Below, one piece after another: positions 10,258 through 54,462 of a DNA stretch of 54,462 bases. The notes below the pieces were generated by a model. The model was not told the origin of the DNA. It saw nothing but the letters and a program-made list of their open reading frames with translations, and did not search any database. Both the position numbers and the translations under genes were made by a program. Within the stretch, counting starts at the first letter, position 1. Every line of letters begins with the position of its first letter. Source of the DNA: Leptolyngbya sp. Heron Island J (GTDB taxonomy: Bacteria > Cyanobacteriota > Cyanobacteriia > Phormidesmidales > Phormidesmidaceae); assembly GCF_000482245.1 (NCBI RefSeq), contig NZ_AWNH01000032.1:1-54462 (forward strand), in the 5' to 3' direction.

Positions 10258-10713
10258 ATGGCACAGCATACACCAAACCAAGAACAAGAGAATAATGAAG
10301 ACCATAAGGACTGGTCTGTAGAAGGCACGAGTATTTCATTGGATGAAATTAGTCACTTAATACGAAACTTTAACGGCCTTATTGAACAATTTAGAGGGTT
10401 ATCACGGACTATTTTTGGCAGTCAGCCAAGAGAAACTCAACAAGAGTCGAAAGCAGTTAACTTACTTAGGTATGAAGACTTGATTCAATATTTTGTTGAA
10501 GCAAAACCGGATGATCTTAAAATTTCCCAAGGAGCTTTAATAAAAGAATATAAAGGCTCTAAATATCTGATACTCCAGATATTTCTAGATAAGAACTATG
10601 AAATAGTTTCATCATCAAGTGGAAAGCCATACGGTCGACGTATTCTTGCTAAGAAGCTCGATCAAGAATTAGTAGACGCGTTTAATGGCAAAGAAATGAT
10701 CATCGTTAAGTAG
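10258..10713 (+). CDS. Hypothetical protein, first gene of AT-rich module
   Basis: 151 residues, not recognised. The first 30 residues are polar and acidic. The middle (ISLDEISHLIRNFNGLIEQFRGLSR) looks like an amphipathic helix. The C-terminal half (YEDLIQYFVEAKPDDLKISQ to the end) looks like a small alpha/beta domain with LLRYEDL, GSKYLILQIFLD and GRRILAKKLDQEL. No signal peptide or membrane segment. It is followed after 12 bp by the next gene and then by the AAA ATPase, all on the same strand and all AT-rich compared with neighbours, suggesting a co-transferred unit. Function unknown. Confidence 0.6.
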   Translation: MAQHTPNQEQENNEDHKDWSVEGTSISLDEISHLIRNFNGLIEQFRGLSRTIFGSQPRETQQESKAVNLLRYEDLIQYFVEAKPDDLKISQGALIKEYKGSKYLILQIFLDKNYEIVSSSSGKPYGRRILAKKLDQELVDAFNGKEMIIVK

Positions 10714-13203: not shown

Positions 13204-14073
13204 ATGGCCACCCCCAACAATGCGCCAGGGATTGTCCGTCAAACTACCAATCCCGTCACCACACCTAATCAGCAAACGGCGCAGCGATCGCAAAACATTG
13301 TTCAACGAACCTCGCAACCATCGCGTCCCGCAGTAACGCAGCCTCAGGTCAGCGCGACCCGCAGCAATGTGGCGAGAGACGCGATCTCAAACACCCGGCC
13401 CAGTCAACCGCACCAAACGACTGCCGCTGCCGTCAATCCACCAGCGCCGGTGGTGAAAAAATCAGACCTGTCGGATATTAAGGCATCGCCTGAACTAAAC
13501 GCCCGTCTGCAAGGCATCAACAAAGCGTATCACTCCAAAGACCCGAAGGGTTACAGAGGTGAGGCCACCCGCGAATATCAAAGGGAGCTAGGCCGCCAGT
13601 GTGTCATGCATGGCGGGAAAGGGAGGCTAGGTACATATGAGAATCGCAAGAATGCTGATCATGAGATTGCCTCTCGTATGCTGATCGCAGGGTTTAGTGA
13701 AAAGCAAACAGCACAAACGATTGCCCAGGCATCCCCGAATGCCGCGAATATCAAGAGTCAAGATGGGCGTAAAGCCTACGGTCAAGAGGCCGTCAAGAAG
13801 GCTGCAGAATTACCGCACGTCGTAGATAAAATGCGGGAAGTGCAAGCCGGTAAAAAACAAAATCCCTCGCTTAAGGGGGAAAAGCGATTAAAAGAGTTTA
13901 ACCTGCATACACAGGTAGCAAAACCGCAACAGCAAGGCCGTGCTGTTGTTGATCGCAGCCCCAGAAAAGCCATGCAGCAGGCCCGCAGCCATAGCGCCCG
14001 CAAGTTTGGCAATCGGTCAGCAGGTATGGTCCGATCAACTGGTGCGCGTCGGGCCAGAGGCGGTAGACACTAG
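13204..14073 (+). CDS. Relaxase C-terminal-domain-like protein
   Basis: 289 residues. The first ~90 are Pro/Gln/Thr-rich and probably disordered. The central domain (about 90-200) contains DHEIASRMLIAGFSEKQTA then IAQASPNAANIKSQDGRKA. This closely resembles the tail of the MobA relaxase in this window (ITAKLRIAGFSFNAINRAVI...RSPIAASLP). The C-terminus is very basic (SARKFGNRSAGMVRSTGARR) and would bind nucleic acid. It lacks the relaxase histidine motif. It may be an accessory protein acting on the same DNA or partner as the relaxase tail, or a remnant of another relaxase. There is no strong ribosome binding site; the ATG at 13204 was chosen because the following frame is continuous. Convergent with the next gene (4-bp overlap at the stops). 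Confidence 0.6.
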   Translation: MATPNNAPGIVRQTTNPVTTPNQQTAQRSQNIVQRTSQPSRPAVTQPQVSATRSNVARDAISNTRPSQPHQTTAAAVNPPAPVVKKSDLSDIKASPELNARLQGINKAYHSKDPKGYRGEATREYQRELGRQCVMHGGKGRLGTYENRKNADHEIASRMLIAGFSEKQTAQTIAQASPNAANIKSQDGRKAYGQEAVKKAAELPHVVDKMREVQAGKKQNPSLKGEKRLKEFNLHTQVAKPQQQGRAVVDRSPRKAMQQARSHSARKFGNRSAGMVRSTGARRARGGRH

Positions 14074-31852: not shown

Positions 31853-32849
31853 GTCACCAGTGTCGTCTCTGAAGAAAGAGTTTACGGGGCTTCTTAATAG
31901 TCTCTGCCGGAGCCGCAGTCCAGGTAGTGTGTTTAGTGATTGGCTAGAGATTGCCGCAATCACATTGCATCAACTGCCCTATCATAGCGGCGATTTTCTA
32001 AAAACAGATGCCGCTTTTGTTGATTTGGAAGCAAAGTATATGGAGCGTATCAAAGGCTATAGTCGAGAGGAGCTGAGCGGCTTCAGTAAGATGCTTGGCT
32101 GTACAATGATGGCGCATCAACAGAGCTTTAGTGATTTTCTGGGTGAGATAGCCTCTGAAGCAGAGCTGCTAAACACCAGCAAGTCTGGTGGACAGTTTTT
32201 CACGCCTTATCCCATCTGTCGAATGATGGCGAAAATGACCTTGGAAAATGCCCGTGACATCTACGAGGAAAAAGGCCTCATCACTCTCTGTGAACCGGCC
32301 AGCGGCGGCGGTGCGATGGTGATTGCCTGTGCGGAAGAGCTGATGGACCAGGGACTAGACCCGCGCTCTTGCTTACAGGTGGATTGCACTGATGTCAGCC
32401 GGGATGCGTTCAATATGACTTACATTCAGATGGCAGCACTTGATCTGCAAGCTGTCGTCCGTCATGGCAACACCCTCAGTATGGAAATGTGGGAGAGCCG
32501 TCCTACACCGCAGCTGCGGTACTTCGATCAGTGGCTCAAAGAACAACAATTCTGGCACCGGCTAGAGGAGTTACGTGACCTGATCGTTAATCCCGATGCC
32601 TTTTTTGTCAAGGCTGAAGGCGAAGCAGATGGCGTTGATCAACAACCAGCACCAACTAAACCTGTAACATCATCAGAATCAGCTGAGGTCAGTGCAGATC
32701 AACCCTCTTTGTTTGACTTAGAAACGATGGATACCTTTGCCGCTCCCAGCCATGGAGAACGTCAGCGGTCTACCAAGCGACAAGCAGATGTTGCGCTGCC
32801 GTTAGAACGGCAGATGGACTTGTTTGCTAATGAGGGCAATGAGTCTTGA
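31851..32849 (+). CDS. N6-adenine methylase-like protein lacking the catalytic motif
   Basis: 332 residues. The N-terminal helical part is followed by SGGQFFTPYPICRMMAKM and motif I LCEPASGGGAMVIACAEEL, as in HsdM-like N6-adenine methylases. The SAM-binding core continues to CTDVSRDAFNMTYIQMAALD. Where (N/D)PP(Y/F) is expected, the sequence is RHGNTLSMEMWESRPTPQLR, so the catalytic motif is not visible. Plasmid methylase-like proteins of this type are common. The C-terminal ~90 residues are low-complexity and polar with a short DLETMDTFA segment. Methyltransferase activity is therefore doubtful; DNA or SAM binding remains possible. No specificity subunit or restriction gene is adjacent. Confidence 0.75.
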   Translation: MSPVSSLKKEFTGLLNSLCRSRSPGSVFSDWLEIAAITLHQLPYHSGDFLKTDAAFVDLEAKYMERIKGYSREELSGFSKMLGCTMMAHQQSFSDFLGEIASEAELLNTSKSGGQFFTPYPICRMMAKMTLENARDIYEEKGLITLCEPASGGGAMVIACAEELMDQGLDPRSCLQVDCTDVSRDAFNMTYIQMAALDLQAVVRHGNTLSMEMWESRPTPQLRYFDQWLKEQQFWHRLEELRDLIVNPDAFFVKAEGEADGVDQQPAPTKPVTSSESAEVSADQPSLFDLETMDTFAAPSHGERQRSTKRQADVALPLERQMDLFANEGNES

Positions 32850-32935
32850 TGAGAGACCAGCGGAAGCATGTGAGCAGAAAGTGACGCTCAAAAATCCCTG
32901 GGGTATGATGACGATATTCCCTTGTCCTACTCCCT

Positions 32936-33115
32936 ATGGACCCTTCGGCGCTGATTCAGATCCTTTCCGAAATCGCTTCCGACCTAACGGTTGGAGCCGG
33001 TTCAGCGGCGGCGGCTTGGGGACTTCAAGAGCTGGCTAAGAAACGCCAATGTAGGAACAGACCATTGACGGCAACTACGGGATTTCAGCAATTGATCAAA
33101 AAAAAAACTATTTGA
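32936..33115 (+). CDS. Possible small hydrophobic-helix protein
   Basis: A 59-residue ORF starting MDPSALIQILSEIASDLTVG and continuing AGSAAAAWGLQELAKKR, which looks like an amphipathic helix with Gly/Ala packing. A -10-like TATGAT lies about 20 bp upstream. There is no ribosome binding site, and the tail runs into a poly-A tract (33099-33107). It follows the methylase gene by 86 bp. It may be a real small protein or chance. Confidence 0.3.
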   Translation: MDPSALIQILSEIASDLTVGAGSAAAAWGLQELAKKRQCRNRPLTATTGFQQLIKKKTI

Positions 33116-33180
33116 TGGGTATTTATTACTAATGTTGTTTTAGTAATCTCTAATATTCAGGCGACACATAGCTTTTGCAT

Positions 33181-33495
33181 TTATTCGTAACCAAATAAAA
33201 AATCTAAACCACATCTACATTGCTCGATCCGAATCTGCTTCCCGCAACCAACAACACAGTTGCACAAGCCGCTCCTTTCCAAGATCTGGAGGGAAGCATC
33301 GCGTCCCACCATTCCACGGTTGCAAGCCTCTTGGTAGGCGTTGATATTCCGGCACATGGCCTGCTTTTGCTCAAGCGATAAGGTTAATCGCTCGCCTTCA
33401 CCCAGTGACCGGGGGGCTTTGAAATTGGCTATTTCTTCAGCAACATCTTGGAGCGCGAATTGCTCATCATCGTCGCTGGTCTCATCCGCTTCCAT
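33181..33495 (-). CDS. Cys-rich small protein downstream of rep
   Basis: About 104 residues from ATG 33495 (MEADETSDDDEQFALQDVAE). The acidic N-terminal half is followed by ANFKAPRSLGEGERLTLSLE and a Cys-rich end (GLCNCVVGCGKQIRIEQCRC), which may bind zinc. Its start overlaps the end of the primase-type rep gene by 14 bp, so it is translationally coupled to it. A role in replication or copy control of that replicon is a fair guess. The longer frame to 33552 would overlap rep further. Confidence 0.55.
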   Translation of the reverse strand: MEADETSDDDEQFALQDVAEEIANFKAPRSLGEGERLTLSLEQKQAMCRNINAYQEACNRGMVGRDASLQILERSGLCNCVVGCGKQIRIEQCRCGLDFLFGYE

Positions 33496-35149
33496 ACTCT
33501 CCCTCTCGCCGACGCAACTGCGCCCTTGCCTCAGCGACCAGGATTGGGTCATCGGACGCCAGCCACTCCTTCAAGTTGGCGATATGCGCCGCTTCTACCT
33601 CCTCTTGATAGGTGTCTACCTGCGCCGTTTGTGTCGCCGCCTGACTGGTGCGACCGGCTTCTATAGAGCGATGAATCTCCAACCACAGTTGTTGCGGTAC
33701 AGGGCTGTTGCTGTCCTGCTGTTTTTTACGACCTAAGCTGTTATTTTTACCTGTTTCAAAACTGCCAAAACCCTTGTCCTCAGGTTTTTTACTATCTCTT
33801 ACACAATAAGCTTGTGCAGACTGTGACGGTGCCTCAAGCGCCGTCACCTGCCCTTGAGAGGTTGGGGGGTCTGGGGGGTGTTCATCACCCACCGATGGTG
33901 TCGATAACCGTTGGTCCGTTGTAGGTATAAACCGGGGGTGCCATAAGCTTTTGTGTTCGTCCTTGTAGAGGGTCGAGCCGCCGATCCCCTGCTCTAGCAA
34001 CAAATCAAAACGTTCGCTGATACTATCCGGCCAGGTGTCGTTATCGATAAATGCCTGCACAGCATTGCTGATTCTCTCCCTAGCGGCTTGCTGCTGTCGT
34101 TCGTTCCAGCTTGGCCCCTCTGGTTTAGGAGGCTCCTTTGACACACTGTTATGGCCGTAGGGGAAATAGTCGCTGCTATTCTCGATGGAGCGCGCCCAGG
34201 CTGCAATCCGTTTGTCTATATCCTCCTTATGCCCGCACCAAAGTTCATACCCCGGCAGGCTAAGAACAGTTTGTTTGATATGGGCTTCCAATGCCTTACC
34301 TTGTAGGGGGGCCGGTGCATCCAGCAAATGGCCAAAGATGTAAGACCGCATTGTTATTCGTCCTAAAAGTCGATTTGTTTGCTTCCGACCCGTCCAGCCG
34401 ACAGCAATCTCAGCATTTAAGTCGTTCAGAAACTTCTCTGCTTTGCTGGAAACATTGTAGGTGCGTCGTTTGGCTTGGCTGATGATGGCGGCCAGCTGCG
34501 GCAGGTTGATGTCGTTGTGCTCGGTTGCCGTGGACCAGGCCTCTATAAACCGATGACGACAGCCACTGACCGGCTCTAGATCCTCATTCAGTAAATACCC
34601 GCCCTGCTGCAATGGCAGGCGATGCCCGTTGTAGAGGGTTTGTTCACCGGGGTTATAAGACTTGGCATTGGGGAACACTTCCAACCACCCCGGCAGCACC
34701 TTAAACCCCTTGTTCTCAACCAGGGTGGTGATCGCTAAACCCACCTGCCATGATGGCAGCGATATTTCAAAGGGGAAATATATGTGGAGACCGCCGCTGT
34801 CTGAACTTGTGACGGTAAGATGCTGCACCAGGCCCAGCTCTTCTAAAGTTTCTGATAACCGCGTAATCGCCAGGGCATCCCGACGTGGATGGTACGGCGA
34901 TCCCCGATCAATATCAATCAGGGCATAGTTCGTCGTCTGCCCGAACCGAACACCATATAGATAACTGCCTTGTTGCAGTAGTCGGTCAGAAAGAGGATGT
35001 CTGGATTCGGTCTGCCACTGTGGCTTGCTGCCAGGGTCGGGGTGTGCGGAAAACAGATAATCGAAGCGATGCGGCCACAACCCCAGGAAACGATCGTTTT
35101 CTTCCTGGATATATGTGGAACGCAGCGAAGCATATGTAGCTGCTGTCAT
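33482..35149 (-). CDS. Primase-type (AEP) plasmid replication protein
   Basis: 555 residues. The N-terminal half has the archaeo-eukaryotic primase signature: YALIDIDRGSPYHP with DxD at 79-81, and SSDSGGLHIYFPF with the catalytic His at about 122. A segment after it (KGFKVLPGWLEVFPNAKSYN) fits the third AEP motif. The middle (TRRNVSSKAEKFLNDL-like region to about residue 330) is helical. The C-terminal ~180 residues are low-complexity and then helical (EEVEAAHIANLKEWLASDDP). Proteins of this kind act as primases and initiators on small cyanobacterial plasmids. Here it has a structured upstream region with a probable antisense RNA. It overlaps the Cys-rich gene downstream. The oriV of this replicon was not located. 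Confidence 0.75.
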   Translation of the reverse strand: MTAATYASLRSTYIQEENDRFLGLWPHRFDYLFSAHPDPGSKPQWQTESRHPLSDRLLQQGSYLYGVRFGQTTNYALIDIDRGSPYHPRRDALAITRLSETLEELGLVQHLTVTSSDSGGLHIYFPFEISLPSWQVGLAITTLVENKGFKVLPGWLEVFPNAKSYNPGEQTLYNGHRLPLQQGGYLLNEDLEPVSGCRHRFIEAWSTATEHNDINLPQLAAIISQAKRRTYNVSSKAEKFLNDLNAEIAVGWTGRKQTNRLLGRITMRSYIFGHLLDAPAPLQGKALEAHIKQTVLSLPGYELWCGHKEDIDKRIAAWARSIENSSDYFPYGHNSVSKEPPKPEGPSWNERQQQAARERISNAVQAFIDNDTWPDSISERFDLLLEQGIGGSTLYKDEHKSLWHPRFIPTTDQRLSTPSVGDEHPPDPPTSQGQVTALEAPSQSAQAYCVRDSKKPEDKGFGSFETGKNNSLGRKKQQDSNSPVPQQLWLEIHRSIEAGRTSQAATQTAQVDTYQEEVEAAHIANLKEWLASDDPILVAEARAQLRRREGEYGSG

Positions 35150-35297
35150 TTGTGCTGATGGGGGTAGAAGGACACACCCACCGGCAGAACGCTATGTCAG
35201 CCCTTTTGCTGTGCTGATTTTAGAAGCAACAAATCTTTGCAGCGTTGCCGCCCCAAAAATTGCCAGCAAAATCCATGAGCTGTGCTAGGATAATCGC

Positions 35298-35415
35298 AAG
35301 CTCTTTGAGAGCGTCTTAAATTTGGTTGCTCAACCGTATTTAAGGGACGTTCTGTTCAGTGGATAATTGAATATTTAGAAAAACCTTCAAACTTGCCGGT
35401 TCGGGAGGTTTTTTT
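35298..35415 (+). ncRNA. Predicted countertranscribed (antisense) RNA for the rep leader
   Basis: Starts after an extended -10-like TGTGCTAGGATAAT (35281-35294) and ends in a terminator (35379-35415) whose arms AAAAACCTTC and GGAGGTTTTT close around an inner AAC/GTT stem. Between them 35308-35353 folds into a long hairpin: 8 bp (35308-35315 with 35346-35353, one G-U), a two-G bulge, 6 bp (35316-35321 with 35338-35343), then GGTT/AACC around GCTC. It is antisense to the leader of the primase-type rep gene on the other strand. This bulged stem plus GC-poor closing stem is the usual layout of plasmid copy-control RNAs such as CopA/RNAI-type. Length about 115-120 nt. No clear -35 box was found. 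Prediction only. Confidence 0.6.
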
Positions 35416-35446
35416 AATGCTGTTTTTTATTCCATAGGCAGTACAT
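35414..35446 (-). CDS. Ten-residue leader peptide upstream of rep
   Basis: ATG at 35446, encodes MYCLWNKKQH and stops at TAA 35414-35416. A perfect GGAGG lies 4 bp upstream (35451-35455) and a -10-like TATGAT at 35474-35479. It is the best ribosome binding site in the region, better than that of rep itself. The stop falls exactly where the antisense RNA terminator begins, so ribosomes would meet or open the hairpin complementary to it. In IncFII and IncI plasmids the tap and repY leader peptides work in this way. The length is too short to judge coding by composition. Confidence 0.5.
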   Translation of the reverse strand: MYCLWNKKQH

Positions 35447-35473
35447 TTGTCCTCCGAACAACAGTGATGGCTT

Positions 35474-35479
35474 ATCATA
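35474..35479 (-). promoter_or_regulatory. Candidate -10 box of the rep transcript
   Basis: TATGAT on the minus strand, with transcription start expected near 35467, 12 bases before the leader peptide's GGAGG. The -35 region is weak (GATCAA or similar). Placing it here gives an mRNA leader of about 315 nt before the rep ATG, covering the whole antisense RNA. Confidence 0.4.
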
Positions 35480-35542
35480 CCGTTTCAGTGTGGGCTTTGA
35501 TCGACCGTCGCAAAAATCGTTAAGGTGCGGATTGCCGCCCTT

Positions 35543-35887
35543 TCATGGACTTCTTGCCTGTAACTCTGCCAGGCCCCCCTCAACAACATCCTTCACACAC
35601 TCACAAATAAAGAGGAACTTCTTTTCGTACTCGGCGTTAAGTGGATACGTCTCTGTATGCTCCATCAGAGCCGCAATCATCAGCATCTGAAAGGGAAACC
35701 TGCGGTCGGTCACGTCATATTCGATCTCGTACAACGTATCGATGAAGTGGTGAATCAAAGCAGGGCTGGCCTCTTCCGCTAACAGTTTGAGCGGGTCATG
35801 GCCGAATATAGAAGGTAAATCACTCATGGCGGTTTCCTCGCTGTTGTTGACTGTCTCTTTTGGCCCGTCGTCTTGATGCTGTCCCAT
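35543..35887 (-). CDS. Hypothetical plasmid protein
   Basis: 114 residues, or 94 if the internal ATG at 35827 (MSDLPSIFGHDPLKLLAEEA) is used; both have a purine-rich box in front. The sequence is helical, ending EKKFLFICECVKDVVEGGLA. No known domain. It lies immediately upstream of the rep control region and downstream of the hydrolase gene on the same strand, so its transcript may run into the rep leader. Confidence 0.5.
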   Translation of the reverse strand: MGQHQDDGPKETVNNSEETAMSDLPSIFGHDPLKLLAEEASPALIHHFIDTLYEIEYDVTDRRFPFQMLMIAALMEHTETYPLNAEYEKKFLFICECVKDVVEGGLAELQARSP

Positions 35888-35908
35888 AACGCCCCCTATA
35901 CAGGGGAT

Positions 35909-37291
35909 TTAAGAAGTTCGCGCAGTGATGGACCCCATAAATAGCTGTTGTTCTTTGCGCCTCCGTGTCACCAGCCCCGGTGCTACCTCTGGCGTGGTTT
36001 GTCCGTGCGGTATCCAATGCACCCACTTGCTAAACTCCTCCCCGGCCTGTTGGTGATTCCCAGCATTCAAATGACGCAACAGTTTAGAGCTCGCTAGCCC
36101 ACCGGTGTTGTATTGAAAGCTGACCAGTGCCGCGTTCTGGTCAGGAGACAATGGCACCGTTACTAACTCCCTTACCTGCACCTCAGCGGCGGCTAGATAG
36201 GCTGATAATCGTTGTTCTGCCTCATGCTCAGAGATGGTTTCGCCAGGGTACGACGGCGTACCATAGCCAATGCTCCAGCGGGCGCGCCCGTCTGCTGTAG
36301 TGCCGTCAGGGTATGCTTCCAGATGTAACCCTTCCAATTGTTTGACCAAAGTTAGGGCCTCTGGTGATTTCGTGCTGGATTGCAGGGCTGTCGGTTGATT
36401 ACCCTGTTTCCAGAAAGCAAACGCCTTTTCTAAAATCGGTCGTGTCGCCTCACGGTTCCAACGCTCACCGTTGGCTGGGTCGATGACGGCATGGATATGG
36501 TCTCCTGTGGAGTTACCCGTTGAGCCCTGTAGTCCTAATGACTGCCCTAGTTTCACTGGGTCACCGGCCGCCACATCGCTCTCGTGTAAATGCGCCATAA
36601 ACCAGCGATCGCCGTTCTGACAATCGAGCCAGATGTAATTTCCGGCCCGTTCATAGAATCCGGCTTTATCCACGATCCCAGGGCAAGGGCTAGGAATAGC
36701 CACACGTGTGCTGTCACTGGTCGGATTTACAAGGGTGAAGTCCCACGCTCCTGGTGGCGATTCATCCAACAAATGTGGTGTTGCAATATCTAGCGGTTCA
36801 AAAGCGACAGCGTTTGACCGCAGGCCCGCATCTGATTGACCCAATTCAGGAATCAACCAGCCAATACCGGGAATTTGACTCAACTCATCAAGGCGGCCCT
36901 CTAGCATCTTGACTGCCCAATCAAAGGCGGCATAGCCAGCAACGCCCACCAACAGAAACAACACCACAACAAATTGCACCAGGGCTTCGATTAGGCTGCG
37001 TTGCTGTGCATAACGCTCTGTATTCAGCCAATCGCGCCGTCGTTGTAGCTCGTTTTGCTCACGTATGGCGTCCGTCAGTGCCGTGAGCGCCAGAGTCGCT
37101 GTTATGCCCTCACGGCCGTCAATTGAGGGAACGTGCTTATCCAGCACATATCCAGCGACAGGATTGCGTGATACCTGTCGCCTACCCTGCTTCGCGAGCC
37201 GCTGAGCAATCTGCCATTGCCAAGATAAATCTGATTTAGAATCCTTCGTATTCTGTGGCTTTGCTTGGGGATTCGCTTTCGACGATTTCAT
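35909..37291 (-). CDS. Membrane-anchored M23 peptidase plus GH24 lysozyme
   Basis: 460 residues. An N-terminal transmembrane helix at about 113-135 (ALVQFVVVLFLLVGVAGYAA) follows a polar head. The M23-type domain (about 200-290) contains ICLDCQNGDRWFMAHLHES-like sequence (first residue uncertain) with VKLGQSLGLQGSTGNSTGDH and HIHAVID, the second zinc ligand motif. The C-terminal ~150 residues are a GH24 lysozyme: LEGLHLEAYPDGTTADG (catalytic Glu, Asp), ARWSIGYGTPSYPGETIS, NAALVSFQYNTGG. Together they cut both the peptide and glycan parts of the cell wall. Such enzymes open the wall for transfer machinery, and the position in the transfer block supports a VirB1-like job. A phage origin is also possible. 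Confidence 0.85.
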   Translation of the reverse strand: MKSSKANPQAKPQNTKDSKSDLSWQWQIAQRLAKQGRRQVSRNPVAGYVLDKHVPSIDGREGITATLALTALTDAIREQNELQRRRDWLNTERYAQQRSLIEALVQFVVVLFLLVGVAGYAAFDWAVKMLEGRLDELSQIPGIGWLIPELGQSDAGLRSNAVAFEPLDIATPHLLDESPPGAWDFTLVNPTSDSTRVAIPSPCPGIVDKAGFYERAGNYIWLDCQNGDRWFMAHLHESDVAAGDPVKLGQSLGLQGSTGNSTGDHIHAVIDPANGERWNREATRPILEKAFAFWKQGNQPTALQSSTKSPEALTLVKQLEGLHLEAYPDGTTADGRARWSIGYGTPSYPGETISEHEAEQRLSAYLAAAEVQVRELVTVPLSPDQNAALVSFQYNTGGLASSKLLRHLNAGNHQQAGEEFSKWVHWIPHGQTTPEVAPGLVTRRRKEQQLFMGSITARTS

Positions 37292-43556: not shown

Positions 43557-44483
43557 TCAATCGCCTAACAGTTTTTCTATGGCATCTAAGTGCTGCCTAA
43601 GTTCCTTGCGTTTAGCACTGTCATTCCATATCGGTGATTTTTTGGCCCGTCGATAAATCGTCCCCATGCGATCAATGGCTTTAGACACTTCAGATGCCCC
43701 ATCATCTTTCGTGTTTAACGCTCTAATTCTCTGCTGAATTTCTCGACGGGTTAGTTTTTTTTCATCTGCTTCTTCGAGTAGAGCTTTGCGCTCAGTTTCA
43801 TCTTCTACCCGTGAAATTAGGCGGCCTGTAGAATACGCAATGTCTCCTTTTGAAATGGCTGTATATATGTCTTCAGGAAGATCTAGTAGAGGCAATCTGT
43901 TGGTTCTGAAGCTATTGGGTGTGAACCGCCCAATAACGTCAAAGAGCGCCTTAATGGTCTCCCATTCATCAAAATTGGGTTCAATTTTTTTCCTGCTTGC
44001 AACAGCGATTGAATTGAAATGGTTGAGAACAACCTCCCTTTCCTGTTCCAATTTTCTGCAAAGTAAACCCAAGATAGCTTGGGTTTCTTCAACAGGGTTC
44101 AGATCGTCTCTTTGCAAATTCTCCATGATGGCAGCTTCAAATGCCTCATCATCCGAGAAGTTTCGTACGACACAGGGAACCTCATCAAGTTCCAGTGCTG
44201 TTGCCGCTTTATACCGTCGTTCCCCAGCAACGATTTCATACCCCCCACCCTCTTTCGGGCGAACAACAAGAGGTTCTAAAATCCCTTTCTCTTTTATCGA
44301 AGCTTCCAATTGAACCATTTTTTCAGGCGCAAAATATGACCTTGGCTGTTTATTTGCAGGATTCAGTTGCTTTAACTTGATCCATTGTGCAGCTGCTTCC
44401 TCATCAGGAAGAGGATTGCTCACCATAGGGGTCACAATCTTCATTTTGTATGGTCCAGGTTGAGGTTTTTTCTTTGCGGCCAT
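43557..44483 (-). CDS. parB: ParB-type partition protein
   Basis: 308 residues. The N-terminal ParB/Srx domain has LNPANKQPRSYFAPEKMVQL, IKEKGILEPLVVRPKEGGGY and EIVAGERRYKAATALELDEV. AIMENLQRDDLNPVEETQAI is the CTP-binding/DNA-contact motif. A helix-turn-helix follows in the middle and a helical C-terminus (ALLEEADEKKLTRREIQQRI). It spreads from a centromere site and acts with ParA. Its start overlaps the stop of parA (TAATG). Confidence 0.92.
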   Translation of the reverse strand: MAAKKKPQPGPYKMKIVTPMVSNPLPDEEAAAQWIKLKQLNPANKQPRSYFAPEKMVQLEASIKEKGILEPLVVRPKEGGGYEIVAGERRYKAATALELDEVPCVVRNFSDDEAFEAAIMENLQRDDLNPVEETQAILGLLCRKLEQEREVVLNHFNSIAVASRKKIEPNFDEWETIKALFDVIGRFTPNSFRTNRLPLLDLPEDIYTAISKGDIAYSTGRLISRVEDETERKALLEEADEKKLTRREIQQRIRALNTKDDGASEVSKAIDRMGTIYRRAKKSPIWNDSAKRKELRQHLDAIEKLLGD

Positions 44484-45235
44484 TACAAAGTATCCATTTT
44501 TACGGCAATTTCTTTTAGAACACTGACAGCAGGGCTTTGTGGAGCGTAGAGTGCCAAAGGCATTTGAGCCTGAGATGCATTGGCAAAGTCTGTTTTTCGG
44601 GGAATTGTCGGCATAATTGGCCCGACTTGCTCAGCAATAGCTTTTATGGACTCCAGGCTTTGATTGGCTTGGGTTGTACGACCATCAAACATGGTGGGTA
44701 CCATACCAGCAATTTTCAGCTTTTTGTTAGCCACCTGCATAATTTCCAGAATGGTTCTAACCAATAATTCAGTCCCTTTCAGAGCCTTGAATTCTGTTTG
44801 AATCGGAATCATCACATGGGTTGCTGTTACCAAGCTCATGACACTCAATATGCCAAGACTAGGGGGGCAATCTATCAAGATAAAGTCATAGCTTTCAGAT
44901 GCTGAGGCGAGTGCATTTTTGAGACGTTGCTCCCGCATCAGCGCAGCTGCCAGTTCCATTTCTGCACGACAAAGTTCAATGCTGGAAGGCGCTAAATCCA
45001 TGCCATGCAAATCTTGATAAAGCATTAACTCGTTTTGGTGAACCACGGCATCATAAATTGTCGTCTCTAAATCCATCGGTTCAAGACCCATAAAGGCGGT
45101 TAAAGATCCCTGTGGGTCCATATCAACTAAAAGGACTTTTCTACCTAAATCAGCTAATTGATAGCCGATATTCATCGTTAGTGTCGTTTTGCCAACCCCA
45201 CCAGATTGATTAAAAAAAGCGATGATGCGACTCAT
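44483..45235 (-). CDS. parA: ParA partition ATPase
   Basis: 250 residues from ATG 45235 (MSRIIAFFNQSGGVGKTTLT); an in-frame start 11 codons upstream is less likely. The deviant Walker A is QSGGVGKTT, then LLVDMDPQGSLTAFMG (switch I), DFILIDCPPSLGILSV (Walker B). No N-terminal DNA-binding extension, so type Ib-like. Immediately upstream of parB. The operators are probably the palindromes at 45275-45365. Confidence 0.94.
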   Translation of the reverse strand: MSRIIAFFNQSGGVGKTTLTMNIGYQLADLGRKVLLVDMDPQGSLTAFMGLEPMDLETTIYDAVVHQNELMLYQDLHGMDLAPSSIELCRAEMELAAALMREQRLKNALASASESYDFILIDCPPSLGILSVMSLVTATHVMIPIQTEFKALKGTELLVRTILEIMQVANKKLKIAGMVPTMFDGRTTQANQSLESIKAIAEQVGPIMPTIPRKTDFANASQAQMPLALYAPQSPAVSVLKEIAVKMDTL

Positions 45236-45274
45236 AAAAATCTTTGCAAGGTATGGGTTGTGAAACAAATGGAG

Positions 45275-45365
45275 TGTGAATACCGGTATTCACAGGACAC
45301 ATGATATATCGATGATCATCAGTTTCTACAAGTAAGGTTTGGTTTTTGTGAATACTGGTATTCAC
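45275..45365. promoter_or_regulatory. Two palindromes between parA and repA
   Basis: GTGAATACCGGTATTCAC (45276-45293) is a perfect palindrome. GTGAATACTGGTATTCAC (45348-45365) is a second copy differing only in the centre. They lie 55 bp apart in the divergent region of parA and the repA initiator, so they may be the parS centromere or the ParA/ParB operator. Confidence 0.7.
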
Positions 45366-45403
45366 GGGGCTTGTAAGCCTCGATTTGTTTGCTATGGTTC
45401 ACT

Positions 45404-45421
45404 ATCGGAATATCGCGGACA
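45404..45421 (+). promoter_or_regulatory. Single iteron at the repA start
   Basis: ATCGGAATATCGCGGACA, identical to the first and second origin iterons at 46481 and 46504. It lies just upstream of the preferred repA start at 45428, so initiator binding here would repress repA. Such autoregulation is usual for iteron plasmids. Confidence 0.75.
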
Positions 45422-45427
45422 TTCAGG

Positions 45428-46468
45428 GTGACACAAGCTCCTCAGCAAATAGATCTTTTTCTATCAGATATAGCTAGGGCACCGCTCAAGAATGACCGTG
45501 TTCTGATGGAGTTTCCTTTCTTCTCGATTCAGAAATCACCTCGGCATGAACCGATGGTGTTTATCAACGGCGATACGCAAATCCGAATTGAGCCAGGCCC
45601 GAAAGGCATAGCGACCGTCTGGGATAAAGACATTCTGATTTACCTGCAAACTATCATTAATGACCGGATTGAAAAAGGACTCACTGTTCAGAGAATGATT
45701 CGGTTTTCTGCTTATGATTGTCTTAAGGTGACGGGCAGGGGGACCGGCAAGCATTCCTATGACTTGTTTATAAACGCCCTGGATCGCTTGCGCAGTACTA
45801 ACATTGTCACAAACATTACATCAGGCAATCAGCGTGAGCGTGGTGGGTTCGGCTGGATAGAGTCATGGCGCATCATTGAAGAGGAAAAATCCGATGGGCG
45901 CTTCATTATGAAAGCGGTTGAAGTCACCCTCAACGATTGGATGTTTCGTGCGCTGGTAAATGACAGACGAGTCCTATCGATCAATGAGGATTATTTTTCT
46001 ATAAAAGGGGGGCTAGAACGGCGGTTGTACGAGCTGGCACGCAAACACTGCGGCCGTCAGAGCAGATGGACGATCAGCCTTGAAAAACTAGCAGAAAAAT
46101 GTGGCACCACCCGAGAAGCACGCAAGCTTAAAGCTGACATTCTCGCCATGCAAAAAAAGCAGCCGCTGCCTGACTACACCATAAAAATCGATGAGGGCAG
46201 GCGAAGGGGGCAAAAAATCAGCGCCCAAACAGTGATCTTTGCACCGCTTACACCTGTAAAAACGGTATACAAACGTGCCAACCTTAATATTTCTGAGGCA
46301 ACTTATTCAGAAGCAGTGCGCCTCTATCCTGGTTACGACATCGAATTTATCTGTAATGCCTGGAAAGAGTGGGCAAAAAACAAACAACACCCTCAAAAAC
46401 CTGATCAAGCCTTCCTCGCTTTTTGCAAAAAATATGCGTCCGATAATCCAATTCTGGCCTGTGGATAA
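45428..46468 (+). CDS. repA: Replication initiator RepA (RPA family)
   Basis: 346 residues from GTG 45428; a TTG at 45389 in the same frame lies before the iteron and is less likely. LSDIARAPLKNDRVLMEFPF, FSIQKSPRHEPMVF, GPKGIATVWDKDILIYLQTI and SAYDCLKVTGRGTGKHSYDL match the RPA/Rep-A-type plasmid initiators with two winged helices. The second winged helix (EDYFSIKGGLERRLYELARK; SRWTISLEKLAEKCGTTREA) contacts the iterons. Six iterons follow its stop and one lies before its start. It initiates replication from the adjacent origin. Confidence 0.92.
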   Translation: MTQAPQQIDLFLSDIARAPLKNDRVLMEFPFFSIQKSPRHEPMVFINGDTQIRIEPGPKGIATVWDKDILIYLQTIINDRIEKGLTVQRMIRFSAYDCLKVTGRGTGKHSYDLFINALDRLRSTNIVTNITSGNQRERGGFGWIESWRIIEEEKSDGRFIMKAVEVTLNDWMFRALVNDRRVLSINEDYFSIKGGLERRLYELARKHCGRQSRWTISLEKLAEKCGTTREARKLKADILAMQKKQPLPDYTIKIDEGRRRGQKISAQTVIFAPLTPVKTVYKRANLNISEATYSEAVRLYPGYDIEFICNAWKEWAKNKQHPQKPDQAFLAFCKKYASDNPILACG

Positions 46469-46740
46469 GTGCACCTCACCATCGGAATATCGCGGACATT
46501 ACTATCGGAATATCGCGGACAATCACTATCGGAATATCACGGACAAACTATCGGAATATCACGGACAATCACTATCGGAATATCACGGACAAACTATCGG
46601 AATATCGCGGACATAAAACCGCAATTTCCTTTTATAAAACAGTTATTTCTAAGAGGCGTAACTGTTTAACAAATACACTCTGTAACTTTACTAACAAATA
46701 ATTAATTAACAAATAACTAACGTCTAACGGTTGTGGATAA
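46460..46740. other. oriV: Origin of replication oriV (iterons, AT-rich stretch, DnaA boxes)
   Basis: Six direct repeats with the core ATCGGAATATCRCGGACA at 46481, 46504, 46528, 46550, 46574 and 46596, spaced 22-24 bp (about two helix turns). The first two and the last have GCG, the third to fifth CAC. Consensus DnaA boxes TGTGGATAA lie at 46460-46468 (in the repA stop) and 46732-46740. Between the iterons and the second box is an AT-rich tract with repeated TAACAAATA-like units (about 46660-46720). This is a textbook iteron origin. Confidence 0.92.
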
Positions 46741-50080: not shown

Positions 50081-50125
50081 GGGCAAACCCCCTGATCCCC
50101 CTGGCGGCGTTCCTGAGTGACACCA

Positions 50126-52162
50126 ATGGCACTTTACTATCTCGACTTTAAGGTCATCTCTCGTAGTAAGTCTGCGACGACCATCACAGCGAAAGCCGCC
50201 TATCGGTCCGGTGAAAAAATCCACGACACAACCAATGGTGAAACCTACGATTACACGCGCAAAAAAGGCGTTTATGGTTGTGAGATTTTAACCCCGGACA
50301 CCGCGCCAGGTTGGGCCAGCAATCGATCGGAATTGTGGAACGCTGTTGAGCGAAAAGAGGATCAAAGCACGCGACGCAATACCGCTCAATTGGCGCGTGA
50401 AATGCTGCTCGCTTTGCCAACAGAATTGGACCACGATCAAAAACAAACGTTGGTGCGTGAGTATGTGCAAACCCACTTTGTCAAACGTGGCATGATTGCT
50501 GATATTGCCTATCATGATTTCGATTCTCATAATCCGCATGCCCATGTGTTGCTCACCATGCGAGAGATCACCGCAGACGGCTTTGGCACTAAAAACCGCA
50601 CCTGGAATAACAAAAAGTTGATCAGCGAATGGCGGGAGGAGTGGGCTAACCACGTCAATCGTGATCTAGAGCAGGCTGGCTACTCTGAACGCGTCGATCA
50701 TCGCAGCCTGAAGGAACAGGGAATTGACCGAGTGCCCCAGATACACTTGGGGCCGGTCGTCTGTGAGATGGAGCGTAATGGAGTGCGCACCGATGTGGGC
50801 GATACCTACCGAGCGATTGCCAATGAAAATCGGCGACGGGCACAACGTAATACCGTGGTCCAGCAACAGCATGCATCAGCTGAGTTGATCCTCAGCACTC
50901 AAGCAGATGGGGACACGCAACAAGCATCCGATGAACGCTCACTGATCGAACAGTGGCAGCAGTACAAGGAGCTAGAGCCGGAACGAGATAAGCCCCAAGA
51001 GACCTCTGTATGGGAGGAGATAAAATCTTGGGGCGTGACCGACAGAACCATCGACGTATTGAAGACCTACACTGGCCACCAAGCAACCCAGGAACGAGAT
51101 CGCCGCCTTGACATAGCGATGCGATCAACCGTTCCCCCTGATACCTCTGCAACGGTTGAGCAGCTCTACTGCACTGGCCTCAAGCAACGCCTCTCAGACA
51201 AGGGCAGGGGGTATTACCGAGTTGCCGACAGGTGGTTGTTGACAGAACGTTTGGCAAGACGCGGCGTTAGTAAAAATCAGGCACGGCGCATTCTCGCCGA
51301 ATCAAGTCCAGAGATAATGGAGCAGCACCCAAACCAACGGGTGATGTTTATTCGCCGTCTTGTAGACAAGGTTTACAACCGAGAGACTCAGCGACAACAG
51401 AGTGAAGCCATTCTCAACCGGCAAAGCCAAGCCGCAGCACAGCTAGAAACCAGCACCACGGCCCAGGCCCCACCAGTAAAGCCCGGCCAAGGTGCCGCTT
51501 TTGGGAAATATTCCACCTTTGAAGTCCGTCATACCCTTGGCCAAGAGTACACACCGCCATATCGCCCGTTCTACGACCCTGCCAATGAAAATTTGGTCTT
51601 AGACAACCCTAACCACACTGAAACTAATATTGCTGAACTGGATGCCGATTTAGTCGCGGCCATTAAGCAAGCGGCTCGACAATCCCCTAACAGTCGCCTG
51701 CGAATTAACCAGGCTCACCGAATACGACAGAAAACCGATGCTGAAACAGAACAACAGGCTGGAAGTCATGCTATGGCTAAGCGGGAATATGCCAAGGAAT
51801 TGAGCCGTCAGGCTGAGGCATACGGCGAAACAGCGGTGCTCAAGCCTGAGACTGACGTGGACATTACGGCAAAGCTCAGAATTGCAGGCTTTAGCTTCAA
51901 TGCCATCAACAGAGCTGTGATCGAACGCAGTCCCATCGCTGCCTCTCTTCCTTCCACCGAGCATCAATCGAAGTATCTGGAACTGCTGGTGATGCCCACC
52001 TTGAGATCGTCCTATGTCAGGCAAGCCAAGGAAAAGAAACGACAGGAGCTACAACAACGAGGACAGGAGCATGAGTATCGACTGGATCGATTGGGACTCG
52101 CAACAGATGTCAGCAAAAACCGAGAACCACGTAAACAGCAACGCCGAGGACCAAGACGATAG
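50126..52162 (+). CDS. mobA: MobA/MobL-type relaxase (MOBQ)
   Basis: 678 residues from ATG 50126; an in-frame GTG at 50117 is less likely. MALYYLDFKVISRSKSATTI, TAKAAYRSGEKI carries the probable catalytic Tyr (about 26). The metal-binding motif is YHDFDSHNPHAHVLLTMRE (His residues at about 130, 135, 138 and 140). RTWNNKKLISEWREEWANHV follows. The long C-terminal part (about 250-678) contains a helical region and a tail (VDITAKLRIAGFSFNAINRA) shared with the protein at 13204-14073. It nicks oriT and stays bound to the 5' end during transfer. The adjacent oriT, mobC and coupling protein make a complete mobilization set. Confidence 0.95.
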   Translation: MALYYLDFKVISRSKSATTITAKAAYRSGEKIHDTTNGETYDYTRKKGVYGCEILTPDTAPGWASNRSELWNAVERKEDQSTRRNTAQLAREMLLALPTELDHDQKQTLVREYVQTHFVKRGMIADIAYHDFDSHNPHAHVLLTMREITADGFGTKNRTWNNKKLISEWREEWANHVNRDLEQAGYSERVDHRSLKEQGIDRVPQIHLGPVVCEMERNGVRTDVGDTYRAIANENRRRAQRNTVVQQQHASAELILSTQADGDTQQASDERSLIEQWQQYKELEPERDKPQETSVWEEIKSWGVTDRTIDVLKTYTGHQATQERDRRLDIAMRSTVPPDTSATVEQLYCTGLKQRLSDKGRGYYRVADRWLLTERLARRGVSKNQARRILAESSPEIMEQHPNQRVMFIRRLVDKVYNRETQRQQSEAILNRQSQAAAQLETSTTAQAPPVKPGQGAAFGKYSTFEVRHTLGQEYTPPYRPFYDPANENLVLDNPNHTETNIAELDADLVAAIKQAARQSPNSRLRINQAHRIRQKTDAETEQQAGSHAMAKREYAKELSRQAEAYGETAVLKPETDVDITAKLRIAGFSFNAINRAVIERSPIAASLPSTEHQSKYLELLVMPTLRSSYVRQAKEKKRQELQQRGQEHEYRLDRLGLATDVSKNREPRKQQRRGPRR

Positions 52163-52320: not shown

Positions 52321-54462
<2,142 letters not shown>

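Follow-up and report, generated by a model that had tools for sequence, protein, structure and literature searches.

The window, by which we mean the whole stretch of DNA analyzed here, is a complete contig of 54,462 bases from Leptolyngbya sp. Heron Island J, the genome of which measures 8.06 Mb. Its minus strand carries a rep gene (33482..35149) for a protein of 555 amino acids, for which searches of Pfam, NCBIfam and PHROG gave nothing at E 0.001 and the PDB held no sequence relative. In alignments of 12 and of 28 relatives the residues D79, D81 and H122 are invariant and stand in AEP-like contexts, and the family of the window Rep carries the catalytic DxD and SxH-type motifs of AEP Rep proteins. 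Weak Pfam profile matches were obtained for members of the family other than the window protein: two of 12 matched Prim-Pol (best E 0.0032) and three of 12 LigD_Prim-Pol. An AlphaFold model of the window Rep (mean pLDDT 76, pTM 0.48) matched the CAPP Prim-Pol domain in Foldseek (E 1.7e-7, target TM 0.62) and, more weakly, the primase RepB' (E 4.2e-4, target TM 0.34). By its predicted fold the protein is an AEP primase-polymerase.

The Rep family was located by tblastn on 66 plasmid records and occurs in 72 of the 388 genomes of the class (E <= 1e-130); a search of genome contigs with a single protein recovered no relative, an alignment-based search did. Iteron-like arrays (an 11-mer at least four times) are present in 34 of 129 upstream clusters and in none after one shuffle, and a repeat search of 32800-36000 found no iterons near the window rep. 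In a 13.2-kb plasmid of Leptolyngbya boryana the AEP gene is the only evident initiator candidate, as judged from annotation and the ORF list. Because of the plasmid records, the iteron-like arrays and this plasmid, the AEP family is probably a true Rep family, with a predicted role in replication. The same family is encoded on a 66,991-base contig classed as viral (L245, 3001-4563), perhaps a phage-plasmid.

A second set of replication genes is found at 43557-46613 of the window, where genes for ParB, ParA and a replication initiator of the RPA type (PF10134) lie together with six repeats of 23 nt (46476-46613). The contig may thus be a two-replicon plasmid, and as this second replicon looks complete, the AEP rep may not set the copy number. 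Other features of the contig are a MobA/MobL relaxase with a RepB_primase_C domain (50117-52162), a second RepB_primase_C protein (13204-14073), a defence-like protein with CHAT and TIR domains (1052-2716) and, upstream of the rep leader, a fused M23 peptidase and phage-type lysozyme (35909-37291). The end of a group II intron with its reverse transcriptase/maturase carrying HNH occupies 52321-54086, and a group II intron was the only match in Rfam.

Upstream of rep, elements on both strands face each other. The plus strand shows an extended -10 with TGC-TAGGAT, read directly as TGTGCTAGGATAAT at 35281-35294 and lacking a good -35, followed by a predicted cis-antisense RNA of about 118 nt (35298..35415). 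Folding of 35299-35416 gives two main hairpins, 35308-35353 and 35376-35416, and a small one in the linker between them (-38.3 kcal/mol, z -4.07; none of 200 shuffles folds as well). The first, stem-loop I, has its apical loop at 35328-35331, and its opposite strand (35308..35353, minus) is the putative antisense target in the rep leader. The linker (35354..35375) holds CAGTGGATAA, which is common to close relatives in the alignment. The second hairpin with its U-tract (35376..35416; T-run at 35409-35415, plus strand) is a candidate terminator, possibly a bidirectional one since A/T runs flank it on both sides. On the minus strand a possible -10 of the rep leader promoter (TATGAT, 35479-35474) and a Shine-Dalgarno (SD) sequence (GGAGG, 35455-35451) precede a leader ORF of 10 codons, MYCLWNKKQH, with its ATG at 35446 and its TAA at 35416-35414 (35414..35446). 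A nested two-codon ORF, ATG GAA TAA (ATGGAATAA, 35435-35427), competes with the 10-codon ORF as the leader of the window; by eye it corresponds to CTATGAACTAA (ATGAACTAA) in close relatives. The leader stop lies 5 nt ahead of the terminator stem, and the 3' end of the antisense RNA (35415) reaches the stop codon only. Between leader stop (35414) and rep start (35149) there are 264 nt, and the antisense target lies inside that gap.

A sequence-only reading of the window had already described the plus-strand -10, hairpin and terminator and the minus-strand TATGAT, GGAGG and ten-residue ORF, and all are present at these coordinates. Its remark that the ORF stops where the antisense RNA ends also holds, with the TAA at 35416-35414 and the terminator end at 35415, and the juxtaposition recurs in relatives. 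A generic promoter and terminator scan of 35100-35600 returned no site on either strand, so that the window by itself would not prove the case, and a separate consensus promoter search found no antisense promoter in the window, where the -10 stands without a good -35.

In the close relatives L003, L004, L008 and L009 a good antisense promoter (TTGCAG-17-TAAAAT or TAGAAT), the hairpin, the conserved linker and the terminator are found at the corresponding place. A consensus of the antisense promoter, applied without a control, matched 20 of 26 loci, the window not among them. Three of these relatives, L003, L008 (in the window's own genome) and L009, have leaders about 90% identical upstream, and among them 12 of 17 columns vary in the loop of the hairpin, 6 of 11 in its 5' arm and 3 of 17 in its 3' arm. 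The terminator has 3 variable columns of 41, the promoter 3 of 29, SD and ORF 0 of 23 and the start of rep 41 of 325. Among these three relatives the hairpin loop is the most variable part of the leader, as in copy-control RNAs.

Covariation was examined in two clades. Nine hand-picked antisense RNAs of a second clade (from Kovacikia plasmid pB, Stenomitos frigidus, Leptolyngbya FACHB-321 and others) show four base pairs in which both partners differ; slid controls show 0-2, and three of 500 shuffles reach four. In the nine RNAs 95.6% of cells are paired, and further pair types are not in excess (7, shuffle mean 8.0). For the window clade, RNAalifold on five sequences gave 3 of 27 pairs changed on both sides, and inner pairs were lost or weakened when L030 was added. 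The sequence-only reading had looked to a conserved loop with compensatory stem changes for support; the compensatory changes appeared in the second clade, and the loop is variable among L003, L008 and L009.

Across the family, terminator-like hairpins on the antisense strand upstream of rep occur in 89 of 129 clusters against 26 in one mononucleotide shuffle, leaving 40 without one by the hairpin test applied; on the sense strand they also exceed the shuffle (64 against 26 of 129). Of 22 leader loci, 20 have a U-tract of at least 4/7 on the antisense side and 6 have one on the sense side, which makes the hairpin chiefly an antisense terminator. An architecture scan without control matched 55 of 160 loci. 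By sequence, then, the region has what is expected of a cis-antisense copy-control RNA, namely its own promoter, a stem-loop with a variable loop and a terminator opposite the rep leader. The claim that an antisense RNA precedes a primase-type rep is supported by the conservation of promoter, hairpin and terminator in close relatives, by the variable loop, by the covariation in the second clade and by the AEP fold, its transcription and role in copy control being predicted. The parts and their conservation, the variable loop and the covariation in a related clade are established in silico.

An RNA model built from the nine second-clade RNAs (model R1, distinct from plasmid R1) and run on 44 sources matched, beyond its own sequences, L030, L019, L041, L156, L018, L044 and the window at 35299-35417 (E 0.05), with weaker matches in L066, L074, L003 (E 0.49) and L133. 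An unrelated AT-rich stretch at 10500-10588 of the window matched better (E 0.022) than the antisense RNA site. In 60 genomes of the family the model found nine places and nothing in the window's own genome. Three of the nine, in G015, are one training locus and two contig-end sites with the same leader; L247 and L249 adjoin a rep, and the weak matches L248, L250 and L251/L253 are without one.

A strong SD with a short ORF ending just before the antisense terminator recurs in part of the Rep family, as read from the sequences. In L003, L004, L008 and L009 the ORF is ATG-AAC-TAA after AAGGAGG, and a TAAGAT lies at nearly the distance from the SD that TATGAT has in the window. Elsewhere the leader reads MT (L027, L100), MF (L107, L115, L116, L117, L120), MN (L113), MNKS (L018, L019) or MPKNA (L074), has 11 codons (L052) or 26 codons with common W, L, D/E and FY (L096, L098, L110, L162), or is reduced to an AUG followed by a stop (L054, L068, L071, L083, L247, L252, L254). 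Leader lengths among relatives are thus 26, 10-11, 4-5 or 2 codons, or AUG-stop, and the ten-residue peptide MYCLWNKKQH is not conserved. The leader listing has 52 rows from 33 of 129 clusters; loci with a weak SD or GTG/TTG starts were set aside, for example L020, L026, L032, L040, L045, L056, L067, L105, L109, L163, L237, L245 and L030 (MSP). Four loci (L044, L047, L038, L150) hold a long SD match without a nearby ATG where relatives hold the leader ORF: in L044 a 13-nt perfect match (TAAGGAGGTGATC) has no ATG in the next 30 nt, and a GTG inside it opens 19 codons without spacing, while L047 and L038 have matches of 10 and 9 nt, respectively, without ATG. The group around L076, L081 and L088 keeps AGGAGG near -466 and has no short ATG ORF.

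The position of the leader was followed in 22 hand-picked loci, which include L003, L008 and L009, added from a separate listing; the leader-bearing loci L107, L117, L162, L247, L252 and L254 are outside this set. In all 22 the leader ends before the stem of the terminator begins, against 13 and 11 of 22 when the other two frames are read, a contrast that is indicative only since the loci are related and were picked for SD and ORF. The distance from stop to stem is 2-37 nt, and 13-37 nt in the two-codon and start-stop forms. A -10 candidate for the rep leader is present in 13 of the 22 and in none of the other nine. Counted by cluster, 16 of 89 have an SD match of 7 nt or more at a distance of 12-75 nt ahead of the antisense terminator; three control windows gave 3, 0 and 2 of 89. 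An SD with ATG and an ORF of at most four codons was found in 12 of 129 representatives, one of which, L153, does not adjoin the terminator; 200 shuffles gave 0.95 on average and 4 at most. Considering 89 of 129 clusters with an antisense terminator and the few with SD and ORF, the terminator belongs to the majority of the family and the leader to a minority.

The start-stop form was also sought genome-wide. The pattern AAGGAGGTGA-N3..9-ATGTGA gave 15 matches in 388 genomes and its reversed control two. Five of the 15 share their strand with an AEP rep and precede it by 445-598 nt. Two (L269, L271; the same sites as L252 and L254) are at contig ends with the antisense RNA behind, one (L267) has a terminator-like hairpin by eye and is followed by a remaining 490 nt of contig in which no rep relative lies, two (L264, L268) have such a hairpin by eye and other downstream genes without a Pfam match, and in five (L258, L259, L260, L261, L263) a clear module was not seen. 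At the L261 site (L282, G013:C56, 1542-2441) a DUF3854 gene of the CyRepA1 type follows the start-stop AAGGAGGTGATGACAATGTGA at a distance of about 900 nt, with no clear antisense terminator. Within 1.2 Mb of retrieved loci SD-AUG-stop occurs seven times, each time in a rep leader with this plan, three of the seven loci having been retrieved with model R1. With one codon between AUG and stop there were 16 unique matches in the loci, nine in rep leaders with an antisense terminator and seven not. SD-AUG-UAA gave four matches in 194 genomes (one being the L068 site) and one in the control.

A variable loop, together with promoter, hairpin and terminator in this order on the antisense strand, suggests an antisense regulator of rep. 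In the explanation that we favor, and consider somewhat probable, an antisense RNA on the rep leader sets the copy number and the presence of a ribosome on the leader, not the peptide, keeps rep expressible. We infer both transcripts and their starts, the copy control, the translation of the leader and the mode of ribosome action. The plus strand would give a short antisense RNA (35298-35415) pairing with the leader of the oppositely transcribed rep mRNA; first contact would be made at the variable loop of stem-loop I, which would set plasmid specificity, and pairing would lower the amount of AEP-type Rep and with it the plasmid copy number. The rep mRNA would start shortly before the strong SD. 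Ribosomes loaded there would translate the one to a few codons of a leader ORF and stop immediately upstream of the antisense target, and their presence, not the peptide, would keep the mRNA expressible, either because its 5' end is shielded or because the border of the target is covered. Ribosome presence is favored as the signal because leaders of 1-26 codons and SDs without ATG would have in common a 5'-proximal ribosome or 30S subunit on the rep mRNA, directly ahead of the antisense target.

Bacillus cry3A carries a STAB-SD, at which a bound 30S subunit stabilizes the mRNA. By analogy, the 5'-proximal SD could itself be the functional element, with a bound 30S stabilizing rep mRNA and the start-stop being harmless or recycling the ribosome, an alternative that we regard as possible and less probable than the favored explanation. 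It would account for the long SDs without ATG (13 nt in L044, 10 nt in L047, 9 nt in L038) and for the AGGAGG kept near -466 without a short ATG ORF in the L076/L081/L088 group. Against it speak the position of the stop, which, where an AUG is present in the hand-picked loci, precedes the terminator in 22 of 22, ATGTTCTAG, identical in all five loci picked for the MF leader despite their differing SD and spacer, and the common residues W, L, D or E and FY in the four loci with 26-codon leaders.

That the plasmid is run by the RPA-iteron-ParAB replicon, the AEP gene and its leader being a silent or conjugation-linked primase module, seems rather unlikely. The RPA gene (45389-46468; PF10134, E 1.1e-72) does stand beside ParA/ParB and the six 23-nt repeats (46476-46613), the AEP gene is near the lysozyme/M23 gene, and the contig also has a TraD-like coupling protein; but the AEP ORF is intact, iteron-like arrays accompany 34 of 129 of its relatives' upstream clusters, and the 13.2-kb L. 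boryana plasmid, with its other ORFs judged by annotation, has no other evident initiator candidate.

We consider improbable an attenuation mechanism confined to the window clade, in which the hairpin 35376-35416 would end sense transcription unless a ribosome at the leader stop occluded its 5' arm. The 5 nt between stop and stem in the window would suit it, as would the sense U-tract (6 T of 7 in the window; 4/7 in L003, L004, L008 and L009), whereas in the two-codon and start-stop forms 13-37 nt separate the stop from the stem, and on the sense side 16 of the 22 loci with a leader have fewer than 4 T of 7, a count on which a bidirectional attenuator as the general mechanism was rejected.

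Direct termination-reinitiation coupling from leader to rep, in the style of tap-repA, is very improbable. In plasmid R1 the antisense target lies before tap, and tap overlaps the start of repA. Leader ORF and antisense RNA co-occur in the window as well, but the order there is reversed and 264 nt, with the antisense target between, separate leader stop and rep start, so that a simple tap-like coupling is unlikely. The sequence-only reading had proposed leader-peptide coupling as in tap or repY; the leader ORF and the antisense RNA remain of this proposal, while the lack of peptide conservation, the reversed order and the search of 17 loci that found no pseudoknot speak against it.

Two long-range pairings were tried and rejected. 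For an IncI-type pseudoknot from target loop to rep, 17 loci were examined and none gave a signal (the best, L009, ranked 21 among 200 shuffles and the window 116). Pairing of the leader SD with the pyrimidine stretch before rep, seen in the fold of the window, ranked 55 of 200 there and was unremarkable in most of 25 loci, the outliers L110 (rank 2) and L054 (rank 7) pairing at different places.

If the presence of a ribosome on the leader is indeed the signal, a portable copy-control module may be envisaged in which an initiating ribosome would be parked on an AUG-stop or near-minimal ORF next to an antisense target, the supply of ribosomes thereby gating plasmid replication, common to unrelated cyanobacterial Reps (AEP, and DUF3854 at L282); we offer this as a tentative and doubtful extension. 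The leaders form a natural set of start-stop sequences with which the behavior of a ribosome that terminates directly upon initiation could be studied, since some relatives keep the plan although nothing but a start codon and an immediate stop is left of their leader.

Several known systems resemble the predicted arrangement in part. In R1/IncFII (copA-tap-repA), as far as described in PMC5717011, an antisense RNA and a leader ORF likewise control rep expression. In contrast, the window has the order leader, target, rep, with no leader between target and rep abutting the rep start and a gap of 264 nt from leader to rep, and the Reps are unrelated. The I-complex plasmids (IncI/IncK/IncB) use a stem-loop antisense RNA with its specificity in few loop nucleotides, and their UUGGCG loop motif is found in the sense loops of L107, L115, L044 and L156, not in that of the window (PMC10724649, as partly available). 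Unlike repY/repZ, no pseudoknot from target loop to rep was found in 17 loci. REx-C of Pseudomonas replicons, by the description in the available part of PMC5304414, is a portable putative antisense RNA with stem-loops and a dispensable, poorly conserved leader ORF; it is similar as a control module accompanying different Rep families, and differs in that its leader ORF comes after the stem-loops, adjacent to rep.

Few cyanobacterial plasmids have a known mode of copy control, and the published cases that we found concern other Rep families. Among the best matches of a literature search covering titles and abstract openings, mostly open-access, no such control was found for this AEP family, and within the same scope no SD-AUG-stop leaders in plasmid control. 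The region described here is a candidate site of control for an AEP Rep family that is widespread and has no Pfam name, and its variable loops could define compatible vector sets.

The nearest published system that we found, as far as the accessible parts of the papers go, is asRNA1/ssr7036/CyRepA1 of pSYSA in Synechocystis 6803. Its asRNA1, a cis-antisense RNA about 150 nt long, is abundant and predicted to form three stem-loops, and an extra ssr7036 transcript raised the copy number without need for translation (PMC9978351). CyRepA1-type Reps have primase and helicase domains with DUF3854, CyRepA2 is described in the same paper (PMC10079941), and CyRepX genes are likewise accompanied by antisense sRNAs (PMC10899382). 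As in the window, pSYSA has a cis-antisense RNA and a short sense-strand ORF upstream of a primase-type rep. The two differ in that asRNA1 is complementary to the 64-codon ORF itself (PMC9978351), whereas the window-type RNA lies behind an ORF of 1-26 codons, the stop of which precedes the stem by 2-37 nt in 22 loci. They also differ in the Rep, with DUF3854 and a helicase in pSYSA (PMC10079941) and an AEP fold without Pfam match in the window. The novelty suspected by the sequence-only reading is therefore half right: antisense control before a cyanobacterial primase-type rep is already known from pSYSA (PMC9978351, as partly available), there with a different Rep family and another layout.
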